A stretch of 64,000 bases of DNA from Sporolactobacillus sp. Y61 (GTDB lineage Bacteria; Bacillota; Bacilli; Bacillales; Sporolactobacillaceae). Both the position numbers and the translations under genes were made by a program. The stretch covers positions 496,001 through 560,000 of the forward strand of contig NZ_CP159510.1 of assembly GCF_040529185.1 (NCBI RefSeq). The letters run 5' to 3'. Shown piece by piece: positions 3,530 through 37,962 of this stretch (positions are counted from its first letter, which is position 1; every line of letters begins with the position of its first letter). The notes below the pieces were generated by a model. The model saw nothing but the letters and a program-made list of their open reading frames with translations. It did no database searches and was not told the origin of the DNA.

Positions 3530-6500
3530 TTAGTCAAATAATCCGAGCTGCTCCGTTTCTCCCAGCCGTTCAAGACTCTGAGGGTCCTGGTCTTCAAAAA
3601 AGGCTTTACGGATCCATTTCTCTTTTGTCATCACCTGTTTGCCGGAAGCTGTCGCTCCTCTGAGGCGGCAACTGTAGATCACCGGAAAATAATCCTGCAG
3701 AAACTTGCCTTCAGCCAGAGCCGTGAGGGCAATGATTTGAAAACCAAGCTGCTGTGCCACGAAAAAGACAGGATTCAGTACATGATCACTTGATGCCTGA
3801 CCAAAGGGGTTGTCCAGGATGACGGCCCGGTTCAGTTTCGCACCGGATTTCAGATATTTCTTTTTCTCAGCGACATAATTGAGAATCCCCAGAAACAGAG
3901 TCATATTCTTGCTCCATTTTTCTCCCCCGGACCAGATATTACTCTGCTCCCATGAGTAGGAACGGGTCGTCACCAGGCTGTCATTTGTGACCTTCCTGCA
4001 CGTCACCTTCATCGCCTGATTGTCCATCACCACCCGGATCAGCTGTTTGGACTGAAGCCACATATCCAGTTCCCGGCGGATTTTGCCTGTATCAGGATGC
4101 CCCTCTTCATCCTGAAAGCGTTCATTATCCAGCTGCTGAAGGATCCAGTCTATATAATTCCGAATCCTTGCTTTTCCTTCTTCCTCACCCCAGTTCGGTA
4201 TCGTAAAGGAGTAGATGGCCTTCCAGTCGTTCTGAACTTTTACCCGGGTCTTCTTTGGAATCTGTTTCAGTTCTTCCGTCAGCGTCCGCAGATGCGTATG
4301 AATCTGATCAATAAACAACTGAAGGTCTTTATCACTCTTGCGGATATGCTCACGCGCGTAATGCGATATGCTCTCTATACGCTCCGACATATTATGTCTG
4401 AACGCCATAATCTCTTCATATTTTTGTTTGGTTTCCACACCGCTGATCGCCATTTGCCGCAGCTTGACATCGGAAATTCTTTTACGGCAGAAGTCTCTGA
4501 ATTGCCTCTGGGCGTCTTCCACAGACTGACGCCCCTGATTGACTTTATTCCTGTTTTCCTTTAAAGCCCGTTTGACAGCCGTCACGAATTTTTCACGGCT
4601 GTAGCTGAATGTCATCAGTTCTTCATTGGTCAGACTGACCGGTTCCAGGTCCGGCGCTTTAAAGTGATGGGCTTCTTCAAACATTTCAAGCTGATACTTT
4701 GCCGACTCCAGCACCTTTAACTCTTTTGCAATCCGGTCCGCTGTCTGATCGATGGATGTTTTCTGTCTGGTCAGATTGTCTTTTTCTTTCTTCAGCTCTT
4801 CACGTACTTCGCCGGGTTGCCTGTCAAAGGGGATGACCGGCTCATTGGCGTATCTGCTTTTGAACTGGCTGATCAGCATTTCCGTTTTACTTTCCTGCCT
4901 GTCTTTCCCGGTTCTCGCCTGCTGCACATCCCGATCCCGCTGCTCCTTCTCCCCGGAAAGCAGCGAAATCCGCTCACGCAGGGCATCGATCTGCTGCAGG
5001 CCGTCCGGCGGGAATGCCCGCGATTCATCAATGTCACTGTCATCCTGCTTCAGTTCGTCCATGTCCTCAAGCAGTTTCCGGATACTTTTCTGCGCCATAT
5101 CCCGTTTTGTCACCCATTCGCTCCGATCCTGGGCGATATTTCTCAGTTTCATTTCTGTGATTTTAATGCGCTCCTGAATAACAGGCTTACTCTCATTCGT
5201 CTCGGCGGGCGTTAAGGACCTGAGTGCCAGATATTCTTCATTTTCCCGGCTCATACCCAGCCGGACCTCCACCTGATTTCGGCGACGCGTCAGTGACGCG
5301 CTTTTTTCTTCCAGCCTGACAAGTTTCCCTTCAATCGCTGCTCTTTCTGCTGAGGCCGCCTGAAGTTTTTCTTCAGTGTCCCGTTCGATCTTACGCTCAG
5401 AAGCAAGCTCATTTTCAATCTGCAGATAGTCATGGCCTTTCTCGATATAACGCTCGCGCCCATTCTTTTCCTCACGGTACCGGGTTTCTTTTTCTTTGCT
5501 CATTTTCATTTCATTCTGTAATCTGCCCAGTACCTGATCTATCTGCTGCAGGGCAACCATCTGCTTTTCCCTCTGATTCCTTAAGTCACTAAGCTCTGTT
5601 CTCTGCGCTTCAACCGTATCATAGGGATAAAGCGTCAAAAATTTTCGGAAGGCAAGCAGTCCTTCCTTCCATTGATCTCTCTGGCCTTCTTTAGCCCGGC
5701 GTTGCGCGGTCCTCTGCCCGGCATCGGCAGCCAGATGGGCCTTCCACGCTTTAAAAGACGCAGCGTCGATGTTTTCCTTCCAGTGGACCGGAGCGACCCA
5801 GGATCCTGGCATGTCCTGATCCTGAATGGTAAGGGCCTCTTCAGTCGTCAGTACGTTAACCGGATACTGCAGGCGATCTGAAATATGACCGAGTTTATCG
5901 ATCACTTTCTCCTTGTTTGCCTGAGTGGTCACAAGAGTCAGCGGCCATAACGAATAACCCAGATATTTCTCGCGCTCCTGATCACTCATGGTCTGCAGGA
6001 ATTCCACCCCTGTGACGAGGTAGTCAAACTGATTTTTCCAGGAAATCAGCTGCTTTTCCAGAAAAGGATCAGAGAAAAACAGGTCCTGACTGCCATAATC
6101 ATCCACAAATCGCAGTGCCACACGTTCTTTAAGGAGCAGATCCTCATGCTCCTGCTCCAGGCGGTCGATATTTTCATTCAGCCTTTTTTCAATCGAATCG
6201 GGGTTCAGATAGACATCTTCAAGGGTGGCCCACTGTGGGCGCAAAACAGAAAGCTGACGCCTCAGATCTTGCTCCGATTTTTCCATATGGGCAAGGGCAT
6301 CTTTCAGTCGGTCGATTTCGCGGGTCGTTGCGCCCTGCTTTTTTTGAAGATCCGCCTTCTGCTGCTCCGCAGCCTCACTTTGCGTCTGATCGTCTTTCTG
6401 TTTCTTCACCAGAGCGATGATCGCTTCGTCCAGATATTGGACGCGTTCCTGCCAGTGGGCAAGCTGCCCGGCTACTGTCTCCTGAACCGGATCGGTGAGC

Positions 6501-11364: not shown

Positions 11365-12375
11365 TCAGTTTTCGTTTACGGTCACTTCATTAACCTGGTG
11401 CCTGCCCCTTCCTGTTTTCAGAATGGACAGCGTATCGTCCAAAGCGATTTCTACCATATTCTTCACCGCCATATTGGTATAGAAGCCAATATGCGGCGTA
11501 ATCAGAACGTTTGGCAGGGTGCGCAGGATTTTTAAAGCGTCGCTCGGAATGTCTTTCCCGCGCAGATCCCGGTTAAAGAATTTTTCTTCGCCCTGCAGCG
11601 TGTCAAGCGCCGCCCCGGCTATTTTCTTCTCCTGCAGCGCCCTGATCAGTGCATCCGTATCGAGTACCGGCCCGCGTGATGCGTTAATAATAAAGGCATC
11701 GGGCTTCATTAATGCCAGATCATCCGCTCCGATCAGTCCGACGGTTGTATCCATCAGTGGGACATGCAGTGTGACGATGTCGGCCTGCCGCAGTAATTCT
11801 TCTTTCGATACGTACACCAGAATATCTTTCAGGTCCTCACGTTCGACAATGTCGCTTGCGATCACCGTTGCGCCAAGTCCCTTGAAAAGTCGTGCGGCCG
11901 TGCCGCCGATTCTTCCGGCACCGATAATGCCGACGGTCAGCGTACAGATCTCACGGGCCATCAGCCCGCTCCAGCGGAAGTCCTGCTGCCTGGCTCTTTC
12001 CTCGAACAGCGGCAGGTTACGGATCAGTCTCATCGCCTGGGTAACAGCGAGTTCGGCAACCGAATTCGGCGAGTAGGCAGGCACATTGGTTACAATCAGG
12101 CCGTATTCAGACGCCTTTTTTGTATCGATCATGTCGTAGCCCGCTGTCCGTGACGAGAGCTGCCTGATGCCGTAGTGCTTCAGTGCTGCGAAAACAGCAT
12201 CGTCCGTGATCGGTGTCCGCTGCTGAATGACCACTCCATCATAGCCCTTCACGAGACTCACCGTATCGGCAGTCAGCTCCTCACCGCTGACATCGACCTG
12301 AACACCGTTTTGTTTCTCCCATTCCCTGATCGCCGGAATTTCATCATCTCTGACTGTCAACATCAAAATCTTCAT
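11365..12375 (-). CDS. D-2-hydroxyacid dehydrogenase (D-lactate dehydrogenase family)
   Basis: This 336-residue NAD-dependent enzyme reduces 2-ketoacids to D-2-hydroxyacids. The nucleotide-binding Rossmann motif GIIGAGRIGGTAARLF lies at about 149-164. The catalytic region shows INASRGPVLD with the active-site Arg, and ITPHIGFYT with the catalytic His. These are hallmarks of D-LDH/D-hydroxyisocaproate dehydrogenases. Its ATG overlaps the aminotransferase stop (ATGA), so both are translated together. With that partner it could turn phenylpyruvate or 4-hydroxyphenylpyruvate into D-phenyllactate-type acids. Bulk D-lactate formation is the alternative role. Expression should follow the Tyr/Phe leader upstream of the aminotransferase. 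Confidence 0.88.
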   Translation of the reverse strand: MKILMLTVRDDEIPAIREWEKQNGVQVDVSGEELTADTVSLVKGYDGVVIQQRTPITDDAVFAALKHYGIRQLSSRTAGYDMIDTKKASEYGLIVTNVPAYSPNSVAELAVTQAMRLIRNLPLFEERARQQDFRWSGLMAREICTLTVGIIGAGRIGGTAARLFKGLGATVIASDIVEREDLKDILVYVSKEELLRQADIVTLHVPLMDTTVGLIGADDLALMKPDAFIINASRGPVLDTDALIRALQEKKIAGAALDTLQGEEKFFNRDLRGKDIPSDALKILRTLPNVLITPHIGFYTNMAVKNMVEIALDDTLSILKTGRGRHQVNEVTVNEN

Positions 12376-13568
12376 GCCTGGACGCTCCTTTGTTTTTTTT
12401 CAGTGACATAGTGTTCAATCCGCCGCATCGCTTCTTTCAGTACATCCATGCTGGCTGCATAGCTGATTCGGATACGGCCGGCACTGCCGGGTCCGAACGA
12501 ATCGCCGGGGATGACCGCAACTTTCGCATTGCGGGCAAGGTCGACACAGAAATCTATGCTCTTCTGCGGAAAACCTTCGGGAATTTTCGCAAACAGATAA
12601 AAAGCTCCCTCAGGCTTCGGACAGGAAAAACCCATTTCTGTCATTTTCTGATAAACAAAATCACGCCGCTTCTCATACTCCGCCCGCATTTGCGTGCCAT
12701 CATTCATCCCGTTTTCAAATGCCTCCTGCGCTGCGTCCTGTGCCATCGTTGTGGCCGAAGTAATCATAAACTGGTGTACTGTGCCCATTTTCCGCATGAC
12801 TTCCTCAGGACCTGCAAGGAATCCGATCCGCCAGCCGGTCATCGCATGTGATTTTGAGGCGCCGTTGATCAGAATCGTCTGATCCGGCAGATATTCTGCC
12901 ATCGAGACATGCGGCTCCCCGTAAGTCAGCTCACTGTAGATCTCATCGCAGATGACAAAAATGTCGTGCTTTTTCAGCACGCCCGCCAGCGCTTCGATCT
13001 CGCTCCTGCGATAGGTGACGCCGGTCGGGTTGGTGGGAAAATTAAAGATAATCGCTTTAACCGCCTTCCCATGCTTATTCAGCGCCTGGGCCAGGATCTC
13101 AGGAGAGAGGACAAAACCATTATCGGAGGTATCCATGAAGACCGGTTCAGCCCCATTGAGCAGCGCAATCGGTATGTAAAGCGGAAAAATCGGCGTTGGA
13201 ATTAGTATCTTATCTCCCGGATTAATGATCGACGTCAGTGAAGCAAAAATCGCTTCCGTCGCGCCGGTGGTTACAAGGAGCTGAGTATCCGGATTGTAAC
13301 GGAGTTTATATTTGGTTTCAAGAAACCGGCTGATTGCCCGGCGCAGTCCAGGCGTACCGGCCGATGGAGCATAATGGCTTCGGTTTGCATCAATACTTTT
13401 CTTTCCGGCCTCTTTAATGTGTTCCGGCGTATTGAAATCCGGCTCACCCAGGGTCAGTTTGATAATCCCCGGTATCGAAGACGTTTCCTGATCAAATTTC
13501 AAGATGTCCGAAGGCTGAAGGAGGCTGAGCTCCTTCTTCATTTTGTCTGCCAGTACATGTGTCATCAT
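12372..13568 (-). CDS. Class I/II aminotransferase, probably aromatic (AraT/PatA type)
   Basis: This 398-residue, PLP-dependent fold-type I aminotransferase has the conserved NFPTNPTGVTY (about 176-186), the cofactor Asp-Tyr region CDEIYSELTYG, and the Schiff-base lysine in NGASKSHAMTGWRIG (about 233). Relatives are AraT of lactic acid bacteria and PatA of Bacillus, which act on aromatic amino acids or acetyl-diaminopimelate. An aromatic role is favoured because the leader peptide ahead of it is rich in Tyr/Phe codons. In that role it would make Tyr and Phe from the ketoacids produced by TyrA and prephenate dehydratase. SD AAGGGGAG precedes two consecutive ATG codons. Confidence 0.85.
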   Translation of the reverse strand: MMTHVLADKMKKELSLLQPSDILKFDQETSSIPGIIKLTLGEPDFNTPEHIKEAGKKSIDANRSHYAPSAGTPGLRRAISRFLETKYKLRYNPDTQLLVTTGATEAIFASLTSIINPGDKILIPTPIFPLYIPIALLNGAEPVFMDTSDNGFVLSPEILAQALNKHGKAVKAIIFNFPTNPTGVTYRRSEIEALAGVLKKHDIFVICDEIYSELTYGEPHVSMAEYLPDQTILINGASKSHAMTGWRIGFLAGPEEVMRKMGTVHQFMITSATTMAQDAAQEAFENGMNDGTQMRAEYEKRRDFVYQKMTEMGFSCPKPEGAFYLFAKIPEGFPQKSIDFCVDLARNAKVAVIPGDSFGPGSAGRIRISYAASMDVLKEAMRRIEHYVTEKKQRSVQA

Positions 13569-13593
13569 GATTCTCCCCTTTTTTCAATCAGTT

Positions 13594-13632
13594 AAAAAAA
13601 TCACCCACGGCTTCAACAGCCGGTGGATGATT
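13594..13632 (-). terminator. Second intrinsic terminator in the aminotransferase leader
   Basis: On the minus strand the arms at 13619-13631 and 13600-13611 form a GC-rich stem (ATCATCCAC-C-GGC with GCCGTGGGTGAT), followed by a run of seven T. It lies only about 25 bases before the aminotransferase ATG. Its 5' arm is complementary over nine bases to 13677-13685, part of the first terminator, so it can be masked by an alternative pairing. Confidence 0.75.
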
Positions 13633-13655
13633 TAAGTCTCTTCATCAGATCCATT

Positions 13656-13690
13656 AAAAAACCACACGGACTATTGAATCATCCATGTGG
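13656..13690 (-). terminator. Attenuator terminator of the aminotransferase operon
   Basis: On the minus strand CCACATGGA (13690-13682) pairs with TCCGTGTGG (13670-13662), nine pairs with one G-U, followed by six T (13661-13656). Its 5' arm overlaps the CATGGATG segment (13687-13680) that can pair instead with 13738-13731, so termination is conditional. Confidence 0.85.
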
Positions 13691-13730
13691 CTGTTTTTAC
13701 GTGTTTCGCCAGACCACTTTCGGCCTTTCG

Positions 13731-13785
13731 CATGGATGCAAACCGGTAAAGAAGTGTTTGCACCCGCTGATTCGAATGCAAACAC
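13731..13785 (-). promoter_or_regulatory. Switching RNA segments A, B and C of the aminotransferase attenuator
   Basis: Three segments compete, in minus-strand order. A is GTGTTTGCA (13785-13777), B is GGGTGCAAACAC (13765-13754) and C is GTTTGCATCCATG (13743-13731). A:B makes nine perfect pairs. B:C makes ten pairs with one G-U. C can also pair over eight bases with 13687-13680, the 5' arm of the terminator. A begins at the leader peptide stop codon, so a ribosome finishing the leader covers A and allows B:C and termination. A ribosome stalled on the Tyr codons leaves A free, so A:B forms and C becomes the antiterminator. The complementarities are directly visible; the mechanism is inferred. 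Confidence 0.85.
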
Positions 13786-13853
13786 TAACGAAAGAGACGA
13801 AAGCAGTAATAATAGTTTTTTAATTGGAGTTCATGCCTGCTCTGACTTTTCAT
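13785..13853 (-). CDS. Tyr/Phe-rich leader peptide of the aminotransferase operon
   Basis: This 22-codon frame begins with ATG at 13853, preceded by AAGGGAG (13869-13863) at 9-base spacing, and ends in TAG. It starts MKSQSRHE and ends NYYYCFRLFR: three consecutive Tyr codons (14-16), then Cys, Phe, Arg, Leu, Phe, Arg. Five of the last nine residues are aromatic. It starts about 24 bases after the predicted transcription start, and its stop abuts the first switching segment. That arrangement matches ribosome-mediated attenuators such as pheA of enterobacteria. It closely parallels the leader at 31504, which also ends Phe-Arg-stop. It is too short for ordinary gene calling. Confidence 0.85.
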   Translation of the reverse strand: MKSQSRHELQLKNYYYCFRLFR

Positions 13854-31448: not shown

Positions 31449-31477
31449 TTGACAAATGCCGTCTGAAGTGATTAAAT
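31449..31477 (+). promoter_or_regulatory. Promoter of the aromatic operon
   Basis: A perfect -35 TTGACA (31449-31454), a 17-base spacer and -10 TTAAAT (31472-31477) place the transcript start near 31484, about 20 bases before the leader peptide. Confidence 0.88.
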
Positions 31478-31503
31478 GAAATCTAATCCAATCGAAGGGA
31501 TCC

Positions 31504-31569
31504 ATGATGATGACGAAACGGTGGTTTAAGGGCCAGATCGGCTATTATAGCTTCTATTACTTTAGATAG
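31504..31569 (+). CDS. Tyr/Phe-rich leader peptide of the aromatic operon
   Basis: This 21-codon frame starts at the first of three ATG codons after GAAGGGA (31494-31500) and stops with TAG at 31567-31569. It begins MMMTKRWF and ends GYYSFYYFR. Eight of 21 residues are aromatic (Trp7, Phe8, Tyr14, Tyr15, Phe17, Tyr18, Tyr19, Phe20). The codons of residues 10-18 overlap RNA segments that pair downstream. This is the layout of an attenuation leader whose translation senses charged tRNA-Tyr and tRNA-Phe. The enterobacterial pheA leader is a known analogue. The peptide itself probably has no function. Confidence 0.9.
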   Translation: MMMTKRWFKGQIGYYSFYYFR

Positions 31570-31673
31570 CGTTCGTGTCCACTTCGGATACGGACGGGTA
31601 AAAACGTTTGTATCTGAAGCTGGAAGCTATAATGGTGAACCAGCAGGATACGTAAAATCCGATCTGACTGGCC
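31531..31673 (+). promoter_or_regulatory. Switching RNA segments of the aromatic attenuator
   Basis: Inside the leader frame, 31531-31541 (GGCCAGATCGG) can pair with 31659-31673 (CCGATCTGACTGGCC, a four-base bulge). The adjacent 31542-31556 can pair with 31621-31635, including eleven perfect pairs. Alternatively 31661-31674 can pair over fourteen bases with 31720-31733, the 5' arm of the terminator. A ribosome stalled at codons 14-20 would cover the first segment, freeing 31659-31673 to act as antiterminator. A ribosome at the stop codon, or no ribosome, allows the long pairing and termination. The pairings are seen; the mechanism is inferred. Confidence 0.88.
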
Positions 31674-31720
31674 GCCATCATCATCTGTAATCTCTCTTTC
31701 TTTCGTGAATCGCAATCACC

Positions 31721-31762
31721 GGCCAGTCGGATCTGTTGATCTGACTGGCTATTTTATTTTTC
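31721..31762 (+). terminator. Attenuator terminator of the aromatic operon
   Basis: GCCAGTCGGATC (31722-31733) and GATCTGACTGGC (31738-31749) form twelve pairs with a TGTT loop, followed by TATTTTATTTTTC. The 3' arm repeats 31661-31672 exactly, the signature of competing terminator and antiterminator. Confidence 0.93.
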
Positions 31763-31781
31763 AGAAGGAGTGCAGCCGCAC

Positions 31782-32993
31782 GTGTCACGATCTAATAAAA
31801 TCAGGCTCAGTTTCACGCTCTACCTTAATTACTTTGTTCATGGAATCGGGCTGCTCATTCTCACACAGAATATGAAAGCCCTGAGCGGCGAATGGGGCAC
31901 ACCGCTCGCCACCGTGTCGTATGTCATTTCCGGAGTCGGTATCGGTCGGCTTCTGGCCTATTATCTTCTCGGCAGTCTGTCAGACCGTTATGGAAGAAAA
32001 AATTTTGTATACTTTGGCATGCTGAGCTACTTTATCTTCTTCATCGGTATGATCGTCACGACGGATTTCAGGGTAGCCTACCTGCTAGCCATTCTTGCCG
32101 GTGTCGCCAATTCCGCTCTTGATTCAGGTACCTACCCGACATTTCTGGAAATGGACAACCGGAATGGCGCAGCAAATATTCTGATTAAGGCAGCCATGTC
32201 TGTCGGAGAATTTGTTCTTCCTATATTTATCGGACTGAATGAAAACCTGGGCGGCTGGTACGGACTGAGTTTTATCTTTGCAGGTACTATTCTGGTGATC
32301 AATTTTCTTCTGATCATGCGGACGCCTTTTCCCAGACAGTCAAGACCGGATAAATCAGCCAATCATCACCTGATTGCCGGGCAGAATCTGTCCGGATGTA
32401 AAATTGGATTAATGATTATCCTTTCTATTTATGGATACACCTCTATGGCCGCCATGATCCTGTTCACTCAGTGGATTACGATTTATGGAACAGACATCCT
32501 GCATATGAGCAACATGAGCGCCCATTTTATGCTCTCCCTGTACAGCGTGGGTTCAATCACCGGGGTTCTGCTGATTTTCACTATAATGAAGAAGAGGCTG
32601 ATTCAGGATATGAACCTGATCGTCGGATTGAACGGTCTGTCCCTTCTGACCCTGTTCATTGTCTGTTTTTCAACACAGCCGCTGCTGGTCAGCATCGGTT
32701 CGTTTATTTTCGGTGTGACCGCTGCCGGCGGTGTCATGCAGATCGGACTGAATATCTTTATTTCCCTGTTTCCGCAGGCTAAAGGGCGCGTTACCGGGAT
32801 TTATTTTTCCTTTGGCAGTCTCGCCTCGTTCACCGTTCCGATTTTCACCGGCATGCTGTCAAACATCAGTACCGCCGCGGCTCTGCGGGCGGACCTCCTT
32901 ATAGCCCTTGTATCCTTTACGATTTGGATTATCGGACAAAGATTACTTTCAGCTGCCGGCGAAAAGGCAAAAACACAATCGAGTCATGCTTGA
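31782..32993 (+). CDS. MFS transporter, first gene of the aromatic operon
   Basis: This is a roughly 403-residue, twelve-helix major facilitator protein. The loop 2-3 motif GSLSDRYGRKNFVYFG (about 60-75) is clear, and helices 7-12 follow a short central loop. The GTG at 31782 is preferred because AGAAGGAG (31763-31770) overlaps the other GTG at 31770. Being directly behind the Tyr/Phe attenuator and before aroC, it probably imports aromatic amino acids or a shikimate-pathway precursor. The fold alone does not show substrate or direction. It reaches aroC after 35 bases. Confidence 0.8.
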   Translation: MSRSNKIRLSFTLYLNYFVHGIGLLILTQNMKALSGEWGTPLATVSYVISGVGIGRLLAYYLLGSLSDRYGRKNFVYFGMLSYFIFFIGMIVTTDFRVAYLLAILAGVANSALDSGTYPTFLEMDNRNGAANILIKAAMSVGEFVLPIFIGLNENLGGWYGLSFIFAGTILVINFLLIMRTPFPRQSRPDKSANHHLIAGQNLSGCKIGLMIILSIYGYTSMAAMILFTQWITIYGTDILHMSNMSAHFMLSLYSVGSITGVLLIFTIMKKRLIQDMNLIVGLNGLSLLTLFIVCFSTQPLLVSIGSFIFGVTAAGGVMQIGLNIFISLFPQAKGRVTGIYFSFGSLASFTVPIFTGMLSNISTAAALRADLLIALVSFTIWIIGQRLLSAAGEKAKTQSSHA

Positions 32994-33028: not shown

Positions 33029-34195
33029 ATGATCTATTTCACTGCAGGAGAATCACACGGGCCGGAACTGACCGGCGTGATTGAAGGTTTCCCTGCCGGC
33101 CTTCATGTGTCTGTCGGGCAGATCAATCGTAAATTACGGGACAGGCAGACCGGTTATGGCCGCGGCTACCGGCAGAAAATTGAAAAGGACGAAGTCAGGA
33201 TCACATCAGGCATGCGGCATGGCGTGACCCTCGGTTCCCCGATTACGCTGAAAATTGCCAATATCGACCACAAACACTGGGGCGAAGTCATGAAACCGGT
33301 CGGACAGCCTGATCCAGAGGTTGCGATGCGGGAAGTGAAGAACCCCAGGCCCGGTCATGCCGATCTGGTCGGCGGGATGAAATACGGACACCGCGATCTG
33401 CGAAATGTACTCGAGCGGTCCTCAGCCAGAGAAACGGCGATGCGGGTGGCCATCGGTGCGCTCTGTATCCAGCTGCTGCATCAGCTGGGTATTGAAATTG
33501 CCGGCTACGTGCGGCAGGTGGGACCGATTGAAGCGGATACCGGTCACCTTTTGTCCCCTGAACAGATTGAAGAAGAAATCAGCAAGAACGATCTGAGGAT
33601 TGTTGATCAGGAAAAAGTCGCTCCCATCCACAACCTGATCGACAAGACAAAAAAAGAAGGAGATACACTTGGCGGCATCATCCGGGTCGTCGCACAACAT
33701 GTCCCTGCCGGACTCGGCAGCTATACCAGCTGGAATGAGAAACTGGATGCGAAAATTGCAGCGGCAGTGGTGGGGATCAACGCCATGAAAGGGGTCTCAT
33801 TCGGAGCCGGTTTTGATGCAGGATCCAGGCCGGGCAGTCAGGTCATGGACCCGATCTACTGGAATGAAGACCGGGGCTGGTACAGAAAGAGCAATCACCT
33901 CGGCGGATTTGAAGGGGGCATGACAAACGGTATGCCGCTGATCGTTAACGCCGTGATGAAGCCGATCCCGACACTGTACAAACCGCTGCACAGTGTGTCG
34001 ATCGATACGAAAGAGGAACATAAAGCGAGCATCGAACGCTCTGACGTCACGGCGATTGTCCCGGCCTCCCTTGTCATCGAATCTGTTGTCGCCATCGAAC
34101 TGTGCAGAGCCATTCTGGATACCTTTGATTCAAGCAGCCTGGCGCGACTGAAGCGCCAGTATCATGATTACTGTGATGAACTGAAAAACTATTAA
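33029..34195 (+). CDS. aroC: Chorismate synthase
   Basis: This 388-residue FMN-dependent enzyme converts EPSP to chorismate, the last common step of the aromatic pathway. Signatures are GESHGPELTGVIEGFPAG near the N terminus (about 7-24), RSSARETAMRVAIGAL (about 131-146), and GGFEGGMTNG with the neighbouring conserved SIDT segment. Length is normal for the bifunctional-type bacterial enzyme. It follows the MFS gene and precedes the prephenate dehydratase-like gene by 15 bases, so it is within the attenuated operon. Confidence 0.97.
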   Translation: MIYFTAGESHGPELTGVIEGFPAGLHVSVGQINRKLRDRQTGYGRGYRQKIEKDEVRITSGMRHGVTLGSPITLKIANIDHKHWGEVMKPVGQPDPEVAMREVKNPRPGHADLVGGMKYGHRDLRNVLERSSARETAMRVAIGALCIQLLHQLGIEIAGYVRQVGPIEADTGHLLSPEQIEEEISKNDLRIVDQEKVAPIHNLIDKTKKEGDTLGGIIRVVAQHVPAGLGSYTSWNEKLDAKIAAAVVGINAMKGVSFGAGFDAGSRPGSQVMDPIYWNEDRGWYRKSNHLGGFEGGMTNGMPLIVNAVMKPIPTLYKPLHSVSIDTKEEHKASIERSDVTAIVPASLVIESVVAIELCRAILDTFDSSSLARLKRQYHDYCDELKNY

Positions 34196-34210: not shown

Positions 34211-34747
34211 TTGATTATTCATACTCTGGGGCCTGAGGAAACAGACAGCAGCAGCGCCGCCTATCATTATCTGAAAAAAAGGCAGACTGCCGGACAGATT
34301 GTCCTGCATGACTGTTTCGAAGACATTACGCATCATCTGACCGATTACCGCAGCGATTTTCTGATCATGCCCGCCGCCTACAAATCCTTTCGTGATCATA
34401 TCGACTGGGCGGACTTTCATTACAGCCATCTGAGGGGGCTGAGGCTTGTGGCCTGTTTCCGTCATCCGCTGAATCCGCTTGTCCTGGTCCGTCGGAATGG
34501 GGCTTCAAACGGGATCGCCTGCACGCATCCGGCAACGACAACTCTGCTCAGGCACTATCTCGGCGACACTGCGTCAGACTGTGAGATCCGGTATGCAGAC
34601 AGCAAGTACCTGGCTTATCAGATGTACCGCAGAGAAAAAGCCCGCTATGTGATCACCAGCCTCCGGATTGTCCGGCTGGATCCGGATGAAAGCATTGAAC
34701 AGACCTGGACGCCGGATATGGTCTGGTGTGTCTATGAAATCCTTTAA
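34211..34747 (+). CDS. Prephenate dehydratase-like protein, divergent
   Basis: This 178-residue protein starts at TTG (34211) behind AAGGGGG. Its layout follows the catalytic domain of prephenate dehydratase: LGPEETDSSSAAYHYL corresponds to the family start LGPxGTFSxxAA, FEDITHHLTDYRSDFLIMPA to the second lobe entry, and THPATTTLLRHYL to the SHPQALxQC region. The catalytic Thr-Arg-Phe near the end is not present; MVWCVYEI stands there. No ACT domain follows. It could be a degenerate PheA, a non-catalytic binding protein, or an enzyme with changed chemistry. Position between aroC and aroA supports an aromatic role. Confidence 0.6.
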   Translation: MIIHTLGPEETDSSSAAYHYLKKRQTAGQIVLHDCFEDITHHLTDYRSDFLIMPAAYKSFRDHIDWADFHYSHLRGLRLVACFRHPLNPLVLVRRNGASNGIACTHPATTTLLRHYLGDTASDCEIRYADSKYLAYQMYRREKARYVITSLRIVRLDPDESIEQTWTPDMVWCVYEIL

Positions 34748-35036: not shown

Positions 35037-36347
35037 TTGAAAATATTACGAACAAACATCCGAAAGGGTCTGCATGGCGAACTCCGTGTACCCGGTGATA
35101 AAAGTATCTCTCACCGCAGCATCATATTCGGCGCCATCAGCAGCGGGGAAACGGAAGTCACCCACTTTCTGCCTTCTGACGACTGCCTGTCCACGATTCG
35201 TGCTTTTCAGGCGATAGGCGTCCCTGTTGAACACACCCATGACCGGGTGCTCATCCACGGCGTCACCCTAAGCGGGCTCCAGGCGCCCCGGCGTCCACTT
35301 AATATGGGTAATTCCGGGACGACCACCCGGCTGCTGCTCGGATTGTTAAGCGGGCAGCCTTTTTCTGCACAGTTAACCGGCGATCAGTCACTCAGCAGGC
35401 GGCCCATGCGGCGGGTCACCGATCCCCTGTCGGAGGCGGGCGCCCGGTTTGATCTGACAGAGGGCGGGACATTACCCATTACAGTACATGGAAACCCGAA
35501 TCTCCGCCCGATCCGCTACCCTCTCCCGGTTGCCAGTGCTCAGGTCAAAAGTGCACTGATCCTGGCCGCACTCCAGGCCGATGGAAAATCGACGATCATA
35601 GAAAAGCAGCAGACCCGGGATCATACCGAACGGATGCTGAAAGCCTTCGGGGGTGACATAGAGCAGAGCGGCCTGACGATTACCGTAACCGGAAAACCCC
35701 ATCTTACCGGGCGGAAACTGGCCGTCCCCGGCGATATCTCATCGGCAGCCTTTTTCATCGCTGCCGCCCTTCTGGTTCCCGGCAGCCTGATCACATTAAA
35801 ACAGGTCGGCATCAACCCGACACGCAGCGGTTTTCTCGATGTCCTGAAACGTATGGGGGCCGATATTCAGGTAAAGCATCCCGTGCATCAGGCCGAGGCG
35901 TTCGCTGACCTTACGGCGCGCTGCTCAGAACTGAGGGCGATCCGGCTGTCACGCCCGGATATCCCCGCCGTCATCGACGAATTACCGCTGATTGCCCTCC
36001 TCGCCACTCAGGCTCAGGGGGTGACCGAAATAACGGGAGCTGAGGAACTCCGGGTGAAGGAAACCGACCGGATCACCGTGGTTACCGAGGAGCTGAATCA
36101 ACTCGGTGCACGAATCACTGAATTACCTGACGGCATGCTGATCCACGGACCGACTCCGCTGCATCTTCCGGAAGATCAGAAGGTCGATTCGCATGGTGAT
36201 CACCGGATCGGGATGATGCTTGCCGTGGCCGCTTTAACCCTTAAAGGGGAACTGAAACTGCTGAATGATTCGGCCATTTCTATTTCTTATCCCGGCTTTT
36301 TCTCCGATCTGGATCAGCTCATAGCGAAAGGTTCTGTCCGCCTGTGA
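35037..36347 (+). CDS. aroA: 3-phosphoshikimate 1-carboxyvinyltransferase (EPSP synthase)
   Basis: This 436-residue enzyme joins shikimate-3-phosphate and phosphoenolpyruvate to give EPSP. Signatures are PGDKSISHRSIIFGAISSG (about 19-37), LNMGNSGTTTRLLLGLL (about 85-101) with the PEP-site region, and RVKETDRI (about 342-349). The second motif is NSGTTTR, as in class II enzymes. TTG start at 35037 follows CGGAGGTGA at 7 bases. It overlaps tyrA by four bases at its end. Confidence 0.96.
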   Translation: MKILRTNIRKGLHGELRVPGDKSISHRSIIFGAISSGETEVTHFLPSDDCLSTIRAFQAIGVPVEHTHDRVLIHGVTLSGLQAPRRPLNMGNSGTTTRLLLGLLSGQPFSAQLTGDQSLSRRPMRRVTDPLSEAGARFDLTEGGTLPITVHGNPNLRPIRYPLPVASAQVKSALILAALQADGKSTIIEKQQTRDHTERMLKAFGGDIEQSGLTITVTGKPHLTGRKLAVPGDISSAAFFIAAALLVPGSLITLKQVGINPTRSGFLDVLKRMGADIQVKHPVHQAEAFADLTARCSELRAIRLSRPDIPAVIDELPLIALLATQAQGVTEITGAEELRVKETDRITVVTEELNQLGARITELPDGMLIHGPTPLHLPEDQKVDSHGDHRIGMMLAVAALTLKGELKLLNDSAISISYPGFFSDLDQLIAKGSVRL

Positions 36348-37459
36348 ATACCATTGTTATCGACGGCCTGGGGCTGATTGGCGGATCTATCGCACTTGCC
36401 ATCCGGAAAAAGTGGCCGGAAAAACGGATTCTTGCAGTGGACGTGAATGCCGGCTCACTGGCTCTGGCAGAAGAAAGGGGCATTATTCATGAGGGTTTTG
36501 ATCGTCTCGAAGATGCCGCACCGCTGGCCGATGTGATCATTCTTGCAACACCTGTCGCAACCATTATCCGCCATCTGATCCGGCTTTCCAGTCTGGAACT
36601 GAAGCCTGGCGTGCTCGTCACCGATGTCGGCAGTACCAAGAAAAAGATCATAGAACAGGCAAGTCATCTGATGAAAAAAGGGATCCTGTTCATCGGCGGA
36701 CACCCGATGGCCGGATCCCATAAGACAACCCTGCACGCCGCGCGGGCAGATCTGTTTCAAAGCGCCTATTACTTTCTGATTTCGGATACCTTTGTGGATG
36801 AGCGTTACTACCTGGCCGTGAAGGATCTGAAGGATTTACTTTCCGGACTTGACGTCAAATGGCAGACAGTCACCGGCGAGCTGCATGATCAAATGATGGG
36901 GCAGATCAGTCACCTGCCGCATATCATTGCCTCCGGTCTGGTAAATATGTCTCAGGATCAGTTCAGCCACTCACCGCTTTCCCTGCGTGTCGCGGCCGGC
37001 GGATTCCGCAGCATGACCCGCATCGCTTCATCCGATCCCGATATGTGGACAGACATTCTTTTGAGCAACCGTGAAGTACTGTCGGGACTCCTTGATCAAT
37101 TCATCAGCCGGATGAAGTGGGTTAAGCGGGCTGTTACTGATGCTGATCATGATGTGATTCGCAATTATTTTAATCAGGCCAAGCTGACCCGGGACAATCT
37201 CCAAGCCCACACTGGAAAAGCAGCCCCGAACTTTTACGATCTGTTGATCAATATCCCTGATCAGGTGGGTGCCATCGCTAAAGTCACGCGGATTCTGGCA
37301 GAGGCCCAGATTAATCTGGTTAATCTGCATATTCTGGAAATCAGAGAAGAAATTGACGGAATTCTGCAATTAACCTTTGCCAGCCGGAAAGATCTGGAAC
37401 AGGCCGCAAGCGAACTGTCCCGGCACGGACTGAAACAAGTAGAAGGTGATGTCAGTTGA
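36344..37459 (+). CDS. tyrA: Prephenate dehydrogenase with ACT domain
   Basis: This 371-residue enzyme oxidatively decarboxylates prephenate to 4-hydroxyphenylpyruvate using NAD. The Rossmann motif is VIDGLGLIGGSIALAI (about 4-19). The catalytic segment GHPMAGSHKT (about 122-131) has the conserved His. An ACT domain occupies the C terminus (LINIPDQVGAIAKVTRILAEAQ, about 302-323), which suggests feedback by tyrosine. Start and stop both overlap the neighbouring genes by four bases. The product would be transaminated to Tyr, for which the enzyme at 12372 is a candidate. Confidence 0.95.
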   Translation: MNTIVIDGLGLIGGSIALAIRKKWPEKRILAVDVNAGSLALAEERGIIHEGFDRLEDAAPLADVIILATPVATIIRHLIRLSSLELKPGVLVTDVGSTKKKIIEQASHLMKKGILFIGGHPMAGSHKTTLHAARADLFQSAYYFLISDTFVDERYYLAVKDLKDLLSGLDVKWQTVTGELHDQMMGQISHLPHIIASGLVNMSQDQFSHSPLSLRVAAGGFRSMTRIASSDPDMWTDILLSNREVLSGLLDQFISRMKWVKRAVTDADHDVIRNYFNQAKLTRDNLQAHTGKAAPNFYDLLINIPDQVGAIAKVTRILAEAQINLVNLHILEIREEIDGILQLTFASRKDLEQAASELSRHGLKQVEGDVS

Positions 37460-37962
37460 CCCGTATGGTGCTTATTGGATTTATGGGGAGCGGCAAGACC
37501 ACGGTCGGACAATTGCTTGCCGCAGCCCTGAACTGTCCGCATATTGATCTGGACCAGTCGATTGTTGCGTCAACCGGCAAGTCAATCAGCCGGATTTTTG
37601 CCGAACAGGGGGAAGCCTGTTTTCGCCGACTGGAGTCGGACAGGCTGGCGGCCGCTCTGACTCAGGAAGGCATTCTGTCAACCGGTGGCGGCACCCCGGT
37701 GAGCTTATTCAACCGGCAACGCCTGATCCGATCTGACGCGCTGGTCATCTTTTTAAAAACTTCGCCGGAGGGCATCCTGAAGCGTCTTCAGGGGGACACC
37801 GACCGCCCGCTGCTCAAAAACATGAACAGGACCCGGTTCATCACTCTTTTTCAGGAGCGGGAAAGCTACTATCACGAGATCGCAGACATCGAAATCGTCA
37901 CAGATGACAAAACGCCGGAGAAGATCGCCAGAGAGATCATCGAGAAGGCGGCATCTCTATGA
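37456..37962 (+). CDS. aroK: Shikimate kinase
   Basis: This 168-residue NMP-kinase fold enzyme phosphorylates shikimate at position 3. It has Walker A IGFMGSGKTTVG (about 7-18), the substrate Asp in HIDLDQSI (about 35-42), FRRLESD, the glycine triad STGGGTP (about 75-81), and lid RPLLKN. TTG start at 37456 follows AAGGTGA. It is the last gene of the operon, with a strong terminator after it. Confidence 0.95.
   Translation: MTRMVLIGFMGSGKTTVGQLLAAALNCPHIDLDQSIVASTGKSISRIFAEQGEACFRRLESDRLAAALTQEGILSTGGGTPVSLFNRQRLIRSDALVIFLKTSPEGILKRLQGDTDRPLLKNMNRTRFITLFQERESYYHEIADIEIVTDDKTPEKIAREIIEKAASL

Follow-up and report, generated by a model that had tools for sequence, protein, structure and literature searches.

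In Bacilli the control of amino acid genes is usually discussed in terms of T-boxes, TRAP or CodY, and leader peptides figure there as scattered exceptions. The trp/pheA/his-type attenuators of enterobacteria combine a leader frame with codons for the cognate amino acid, an antiterminator that competes with a terminator, and the position of the ribosome as the switch. The ilv operon of Staphylococcus aureus reportedly has a leucine-rich leader attenuator. According to the accessible parts of the sources, the published leader peptides of Firmicutes include, besides others, those for his and ilv (PMC2965389, PMC5864092, PMC4833913), among them a histidine leader peptide at hisZ/hisS* of Bacillus (PMC2965389) and Rli60 at ilv of Listeria monocytogenes, a mutation-tested element with a 13-aa leader peptide rich in branched-chain codons and a terminator/antiterminator (PMC5864092). 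The available part of another paper describes uORFC-13-1 of Acholeplasma, a predicted Phe uORF with a terminator ahead of aroF (PMC8632094).

Here we describe a leader region at positions 31449-31762 of the window (the whole stretch of 64,000 nucleotides of Sporolactobacillus sp. Y61 DNA that was analysed), which holds a promoter-like site, the short frame MMMTKRWFKGQIGYYSFYYFR*, competing pairings and a terminator, and is followed by the genes MFS-aroC-orf178-aroA-tyrA-aroK. Like the trp/pheA/his-type attenuators, it has a cognate-codon frame, an antiterminator and terminator, and a proposed ribosome-position switch. Unlike them, its sensor codons themselves pair with a downstream segment (L'), the stop codon is immediately followed by a hairpin, and C:D against D:E is preceded by two additional exchange steps (S1:S2 against S2:A, then A:B against B:C; segments are listed below), so that we read the attenuation relay as longer than that of trp/pheA; what is compared is anatomy, not sequence kinship. 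Bacillus hisZ/hisS* and the reported S. aureus ilv leader place leader-peptide attenuation in Bacilli too, but with other amino acids and gene sets. Rli60 is likewise a Firmicutes leader peptide with a terminator and antiterminator, and its structure is smaller, going by the accessible description (PMC5864092). uORFC-13-1 differs in having been reported from Acholeplasma and environmental sequences only and in having at least one Phe codon in a U run, again as described in the accessible part of the source (PMC8632094). The Rfam family RF02863 (sRNA_2410, Enterococcus) covers the region from the frame end to about the terminator of several members of the family described below; it is filed as an sRNA and leaves the window unmatched, as well as 23 of the 32 loci scanned. 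The accessible portion of PMC5593968 states no leader-peptide role for sRNA 2410.

An earlier note on this DNA had proposed a Tyr/Phe leader-peptide attenuator of the aromatic operon and knew of no such leader peptide described in Gram-positive Bacilli. In the accessible full-text literature (subscription papers lay outside this scope) we found neither a Tyr/Phe leader peptide in Sporolactobacillus nor this scaffold presented as a leader-peptide attenuator; what changes is that Firmicutes leader peptides are known for other amino acids and that a Phe uORF is predicted in Acholeplasma. The proposal itself is supported by the comparative evidence: the element in the window is very probably a ribosome-mediated transcription attenuator that senses charged tRNA-Tyr/Phe and belongs to a codon-exchanging family.

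The leader region and the aromatic operon

The features of the leader region and of the genes behind it are as follows.

31449-31477, forward strand: promoter-like site TTGACA-17 nt-TTAAAT with TGA just before the -10, from sequence reading
31494-31499, forward strand: likely ribosome-binding site GAAGGG of the leader frame, from sequence reading
31504-31569, forward strand: leader frame MMMTKRWFKGQIGYYSFYYFR*, C-terminus conserved in ten other species
31543-31563, forward strand: sensor codons Tyr14 Tyr15 Ser16 Phe17 Tyr18 Tyr19 Phe20, whose class tracks the downstream gene in 60 fetched relatives
31770-32993, forward strand: MFS transporter, first gene past the terminator (PF07690)
33029-34195, forward strand: aroC, chorismate synthase (PF01264)
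34211-34747, forward strand: orf178, weakly prephenate-dehydratase-like (no Pfam match; NCBIfam NF008865 at E 0.027, far below cut-off)
35037-36347, forward strand: aroA, EPSP synthase (PF00275)
36344-37459, forward strand: tyrA, prephenate dehydrogenase (PF02153/PF20463; NF005107 above cut-off)
37456-37962, forward strand: aroK, shikimate kinase (PF01202)

The site that the earlier note called a consensus promoter has a perfect -35 TTGACA (31449-31454), kept in 10 of the 12 genus leaders (it is missing in G007 and G011b), but its -10 TTAAAT (31472-31477) matches the consensus at four of six positions, and the leader promoter is absent from the output of a consensus promoter scan of the window. 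The 21-codon frame and its likely ribosome site are as had been described (31504-31569 and 31494-31499). Eight aromatic codons are present, of which six rather than all eight form the cluster at the end (codons 14-20), with Trp7 and Phe8 lying upstream of it. Only 2 of 200,000 random eight-codon stretches were open with at least six F/Y/W codons; in the window 13 short frames have at least five F/Y/W in eight codons, and the leader frame alone reaches six.

The terminator consists of 13 pairs followed by ATTTTATTTT. Its 3' arm does repeat an upstream segment, exactly over 12 nt (GATCTGACTGGC, at 31661-31672 and 31738-31749), and the antiterminator that had been drawn between 31661-31674 (segment C below) and 31720-31733 is confirmed as 93% complementary over 14 nt. 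A segment at 31531-31541 had been placed inside the Tyr codons and assigned the role of sequestering C: it actually lies shortly before the Tyr codons, over codons 10-13, and its pairing with C exists in the window but appears, by eye, peculiar to the window species. The fold of 31484-31765 has -104 kcal/mol, against -72.4 (sd 4.6) in shuffles (z -6.9).

Among the genes of the operon, aroC is 99% identical to that of Sporolactobacillus sp. THM19-2, and orf178 may resemble BacA-type prephenate decarboxylases. The MFS protein of the window has 407 aa, and open frames of 492-532 aa are seen in 10 of 11 close genus relatives; two MFS relatives from other Bacilli (L194, L220) are fused to a chorismate mutase domain.

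Conservation within Sporolactobacillus

When the MFS protein was searched against 58 genomes, eleven other Sporolactobacillus species were found to have a close copy (65-77% identity), and the leader frame and RNA lie ahead of it in 10 of these 11 (e.g. MKKLQMAQTYYYGFYYFR*, MNHLKLSKTYYYAYVYFR*, MMQTWQWFEKDYYGFYYYFR*). The absence of the frame or the pairings from close relatives had been named as a result that would speak against the attenuator; both recur in these ten species. Four leaders (G004, G005, G006 and G011) have one additional Tyr codon each, by in-frame insertion. The eleventh species (G013) has a degenerate leader (19.8 bits with the covariance model R1), and its operon is reduced to MFS and aroK, without tyrA, aroA and aroC. 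G011 has a second operon, MFS-tyrA-aroK, with a leader of its own. Strong R1 matches number 14 and fall in 12 of the 15 genus genomes; the second copy of G011 and a remnant in G002 are among them.

Several side observations were made in these genomes. The G002 remnant (L140, 5310-5850) is a full leader with the first MFS codons interrupted by an insertion sequence, left over from a second operon copy. The distance from terminator to MFS in G002 and G008 (L003, L005) is very roughly 120-170 bases longer than in most other species. In G012 (L108, reverse complement 3676-3774) a row of tyrA-aroA-aroC-pheA-like-aroK genes is preceded by a Tyr-rich leader, MDKKYAVYFRSFTNWGYYYFQASLYTTKYFKP*, that appears to be unrelated and has a terminator-like hairpin.

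The family beyond the genus and the codon-gene match

With stricter filters, R1 matched 8 of 397 genomes of the order, all of them Sporolactobacillus and none outside the genus. Among 398 genomes of the class it gave a single outside match, in G693 (probably a Streptococcus), where the leader MLKNTSITTEKLNRYYYFSFFR* precedes a gene with TrpX as its best NCBIfam match, below cut-off. At E ≤ 0.1, R1 matched 12 of 40 genomes of the genus of G693, each with such a leader ahead of a lipoprotein gene (alike by eye). The first impression from R1, that the scaffold is restricted to Sporolactobacillus, was rejected, as the outside match in the class opened a wider family. A second model, R2, built from 12 Sporolactobacillus sequences and 10 of the genus of G693, matched 232 of 395 genomes and 59 of 80 genera of another Bacilli order (probably Lactobacillales) at E ≤ 0.01, and 34 of 398 genomes and 10 of 145 genera over the class at E ≤ 0.001. 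By sequence comparison, the leader in the window is one of a large family and no lone case.

We fetched 60 R2 loci, a non-random choice from the best-scoring matches, usually one per genus label and sometimes several per genome. All 60 have a short frame that ends at or near the model stop, with at least three aromatic or at least four Ile/Leu/Val codons in the last nine; a strict in-register sensor frame is found at 57 of 60 loci, while shuffling the upstream bases leaves one in 158 of 3000 cases. That the frame is a chance short frame is rejected on this comparison, on its conservation in the genus and on its rarity in random stretches. A terminator-like hairpin (≤ -12 kcal/mol, then T's) is found at all 60 loci; among controls it occurs in 7 of 120 shuffled regions and, further downstream, in 1 of 60 stretches. 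When the hairpin scan was restricted to even lengths (39 of 60 loci), 29 of these 39 hairpins had a segment upstream that paired better than in 95 of 100 shuffles.

The sensor codons fall into two types among the 60 loci, 54 Tyr/Phe and 6 Ile/Leu/Val (leader ends are e.g. ...NIISIIR* and ...LLISVIR*), and branched-chain genes follow 6 of the 6 Ile/Leu/Val frames and none of the 54 aromatic ones. Genes were assigned by Pfam at 30 of the 60 loci, and by the best blastp match to those at the remaining 30. Behind the Tyr/Phe frames are TrpX-like ABC genes (35), aroE (9), prephenate dehydratase (3), DAHP synthase (2), MFS-chorismate mutase fusions (2), family-3 solute-binding transporters (2) and a 2-hydroxyacid dehydrogenase (1). 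Behind the Ile/Leu/Val frames are ilvA (3), acetolactate synthase (1) and branched-chain aminotransferase (1), all above NCBIfam cut-offs, while the sixth such frame precedes a LivJ-like protein whose best match is a branched-chain binding protein, below cut-off. LivJ and TrpX are in part tentative gene names; TrpX (NF041285) is the best NCBIfam match, yet below cut-off, in the three proteins tested.

Finer differences in the codons can be seen as well. Two of the three leaders before prephenate dehydratase (G554, G563) have Phe without Tyr in the last nine codons; in L238, the third, both occur. Trp is missing from the last nine codons of all 35 fetched leaders before TrpX-like ABC genes, and therefore the substrate of many of these transporters may be Tyr/Phe instead of Trp. 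In L236 the model matches strongly a second time (1742-1856, 45.9 bits), downstream of the first gene of the locus, which suggests an internal leader.

Competing pairings and their covariation

The pairing segments of the leader in the window are as follows.

31543-31554, forward strand: sensor-codon arm L, partner L'
31560-31568, forward strand: ORF-end arm CTTTAGATA, partner A
31570-31580, forward strand: S1, 5' arm of the hairpin immediately past the stop codon
31586-31596, forward strand: S2, partner S1 or A
31605-31623, forward strand: A, partner S2, ORF end or B
31622-31634, forward strand: L', partner the sensor-codon arm
31640-31652, forward strand: B, partner A or C
31661-31674, forward strand: C, 5' arm of the antiterminator
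31720-31733, forward strand: D, 3' arm of the antiterminator and 5' arm of the terminator
31738-31761, forward strand: E, 3' arm of the terminator (31738-31749) and T-rich tail

The chain that is widely kept consists of codon arm:L', ORF end:A, S1:S2 versus S2:A, A:B versus B:C, and C:D versus D:E, and neighbouring pairs along it compete with each other. Of the pairs tested in the window, C:D and D:E are strongest and A:B is weakest (-6.5 kcal/mol, over part of A). In the 12 genus leaders the share of standard pairs and the number of double-change cells are 99.2% and 4 for S1:S2, 97.2% and 0 for ORF end:A, 87.9% and 3 for S2:A, 95.8% and 1 for A:B, 96.3% and 7 for B:C, 90.2% and 9 for C:D, and 95.7% and 10 for D:E. 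With the partner slid, at most 63% are paired over all seven helices, and at most 48% for S1:S2, B:C, D:E, A:B and C:D. In this genus set A:B and ORF end:A show no excess over shuffles.

The wider alignment adds evidence for individual helices. Over 87 aligned matches, two rows of which are spurious, S2:A has 92.5% of its cells paired (at most 57% when slid); its double changes number 31, where shuffles have 13.1 (0 of 500), and this helix lies outside the structure of the R2 model; the model's own helices, to which the alignment was fitted, are 93.7% paired over the same rows, with double changes in 14 of 20 pairs. For codon arm:L', in 24 dissimilar leaders (relatedness being only partly removed), cognate pairing has -12.7 kcal/mol and non-cognate pairing -8.1 (0 of 20,000 permutations). 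A:B is among the best 5% of shuffles in 54 of 84 leaders, B:C in 61 of 84, and both are in 46. An antisense match (L002), a partial match (L195) and the second leader of the window (see below) were left out of the wide codon arm:L' and A:B/B:C tests and are counted in the 87 rows; the same-species genome G058 was excluded from the folding simulation, the codon arm:L' analysis and the alignments, and alignment A3, which is behind R2, is without the G005 leader (L009) and the near-duplicates L150/L151.

Proposed mechanism and folding

What can be read from the sequences is the frame with its codons, the terminator, a set of mutually exclusive pairs that are conserved and in part covary, and a codon type that matches the gene; that the leader frame is translated we infer from its conservation and its ribosome site. 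Under starvation, a ribosome stalled on the aromatic codons would cover the codon arm, so that L' loses the codon arm and A loses the ORF end; the S1:S2 hairpin after the stop codon would be left free, A would pair with B, C would be free for D, and C:D would block the terminator and let the operon be transcribed. In the replete state, a ribosome at the stop codon would cover S1 and S2 would capture A; alternatively, once the ribosome is gone, the codon arm would capture L' and the ORF end A; B would pair with C and D with E, and transcription would end. S2 and A would act as sensors of ribosome position, because a stalled ribosome would leave most of S1 free and a ribosome at the stop codon, with 12 nt masked from the A site, would cover it. 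In an untranslated leader the codon arm would hold A/L', making termination the default.

We simulated step-wise folding; the simulation is crude and its counts are indicative only. In the window, antitermination was reached in 56 of 72 runs with an aromatic A-site codon, 6 of 12 at Ser16, 3 of 12 at Arg, 4 of 12 at the stop codon and 1 of 6 untranslated. Pooled over 12 leaders, the corresponding counts are 353/828 for aromatic codons, 71/180 for other cluster codons, 21/144 for the last Arg, 32/144 for the stop codon and 8/72 untranslated. Nine of the 12 leaders, including that of the window, are higher on aromatic codons than at the stop (G002 barely so, 3/72 vs 0/12), and G005, G006 and G011b go opposite to the prediction against the stop.

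When transcripts reaching the end of D were folded at equilibrium, G004 and G001 switched as predicted and G007 did so in part (low C:D at the stop). The leader of the window did not switch: wherever the ribosome was placed, C:D was present in these transcripts, and before D is made C was mostly paired. Equilibrium partition functions were set aside as a switching test, being uninformative in most leaders. The relay has good support as anatomy but only moderate support as dynamics, where the simulation and the equilibrium folds are mixed.

Alternative explanations

Could the element be a classical three-helix attenuator of the trp/pheA type, in which the codon arm or 31531-31541 competes for C, C:D then competes with D:E, and the other helices are incidental? 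We consider this unlikely. Such a reading would fit the strength of C:D and D:E in the window, the presence there of the 31531-31541:C pairing and the A:B covariation that does not rise above shuffles in the genus, but it leaves aside that S1:S2 and S2:A are kept and covary over the 87 rows, that B:C covaries in the genus and that A:B is prominent in 54 and B:C in 61 of the 84 leaders, and the 31531-31541:C pairing looks, by eye, specific to the window. Arrest by the nascent peptide (TnaC/ErmCL-like), with the conserved ...FR* end stalling the ribosome on a free amino acid or other ligand, is very unlikely. The rest of the peptide switches from YYFSYFR to IISIIR with the downstream pathway, and four leaders (L183, L212, L216 and L234) run three codons beyond the Arg; although Phe-Arg-stop is retained in most leaders, RNA pairing explains it better than peptide arrest does, because in L221/L223, where the ORF end is without Arg and the stop is TGA, A has changed to match, so that the pairing with A accounts for the ORF-end nucleotides.

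A T-box, a TRAP-regulated leader or a metabolite-binding riboswitch with an accidental short frame is barely conceivable. T-boxes are plentiful, being found in 15 of 15 genus genomes, but Rfam gave no match to the leader at gathering (chance-level matches only, at E ≤ 10). The T-box model RF00230 in particular has no match at the leader, and 18 matches at E ≤ 0.001 in the same genome; the absence of a T-box here is thus not for lack of T-boxes in the genome, as all 15 genus genomes have them. A TRAP-regulated leader has about eleven spaced (G/U)AG triplets, and three were found within 31484-31765. The frame and its codon class, moreover, are conserved. A mainly trans-acting small RNA, the class to which Rfam assigns the enterococcal relatives, is a highly improbable reading: RF02863 matches the leader in 9 of the 32 scanned loci, and the accessible part of the source reports a 195-nt RNA of Enterococcus faecium with two transcripts on a Northern blot (PMC5593968), but a terminated leader would itself show up as such a short RNA, and both the cis position before amino acid genes and the codon-gene match in the 60 loci speak against a role in trans.

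Implications for leader-peptide attenuation in Bacilli

On a ribosome-mediated attenuator, the sensor codons appear to have been exchanged on one scaffold, between Tyr/Phe, Phe, Tyr/Phe/Trp and Ile/Leu/Val. It is likely that one RNA scaffold with a replaceable codon cassette is a general leader-peptide attenuator of lactic-type Bacilli beside T-boxes, with a relay that is read by the ribosome and codons that predict the downstream substrate. Given the known leader peptides of Firmicutes and the match of RF02863 to part of the family, we regard the leader as a new form of ribosome-mediated attenuation, widespread and modular. If true, leader-peptide attenuation would be common in the order with 59 of 80 sampled genera matched, the Rfam 'sRNA' RF02863 would be reinterpreted, substrate predictions would follow for many transporters, and an attenuator could change its amino acid specificity while the RNA scaffold stays.

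A second member in the window and weaker members in the genus

The window holds a second candidate member of the family (13590-13853, reverse strand), with the following features.

13785-13853, reverse strand: second leader frame of the attenuator family, MKSQSRHELQLKNYYYCFRLFR*
13678-13795, reverse strand: RNA core (R2, 22.1 bits, E 0.032), kept with the gene in other genus genomes
13596-13630, reverse strand: terminator-like hairpin
12372-13568, reverse strand: class I/II aminotransferase after the second leader (PF00155; NF005588 above cut-off)
11365-12375, reverse strand: D-2-hydroxyacid (D-lactate type) dehydrogenase, next gene (PF02826/PF00389; NF006374 below cut-off)

This member is found with the aminotransferase gene in six other genus genomes, one of them of the same species. 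At E ≤ 2, R2 gave 25 weaker matches in the 15 genus genomes; of 16 examined, three had no leader or were unreadable and 13 had a Tyr-rich frame in place. Since the scores are weak (E 2e-4 to 1.2), the case for these members depends on the frame and the gene no less than on the model. Seven of the 13 lie ahead of a class I/II aminotransferase (one of these in the window), one ahead of a DeoC/LacD-type aldolase, and five ahead of a transketolase (by Pfam for two, the others by eye), with a Trp codon in the cluster.
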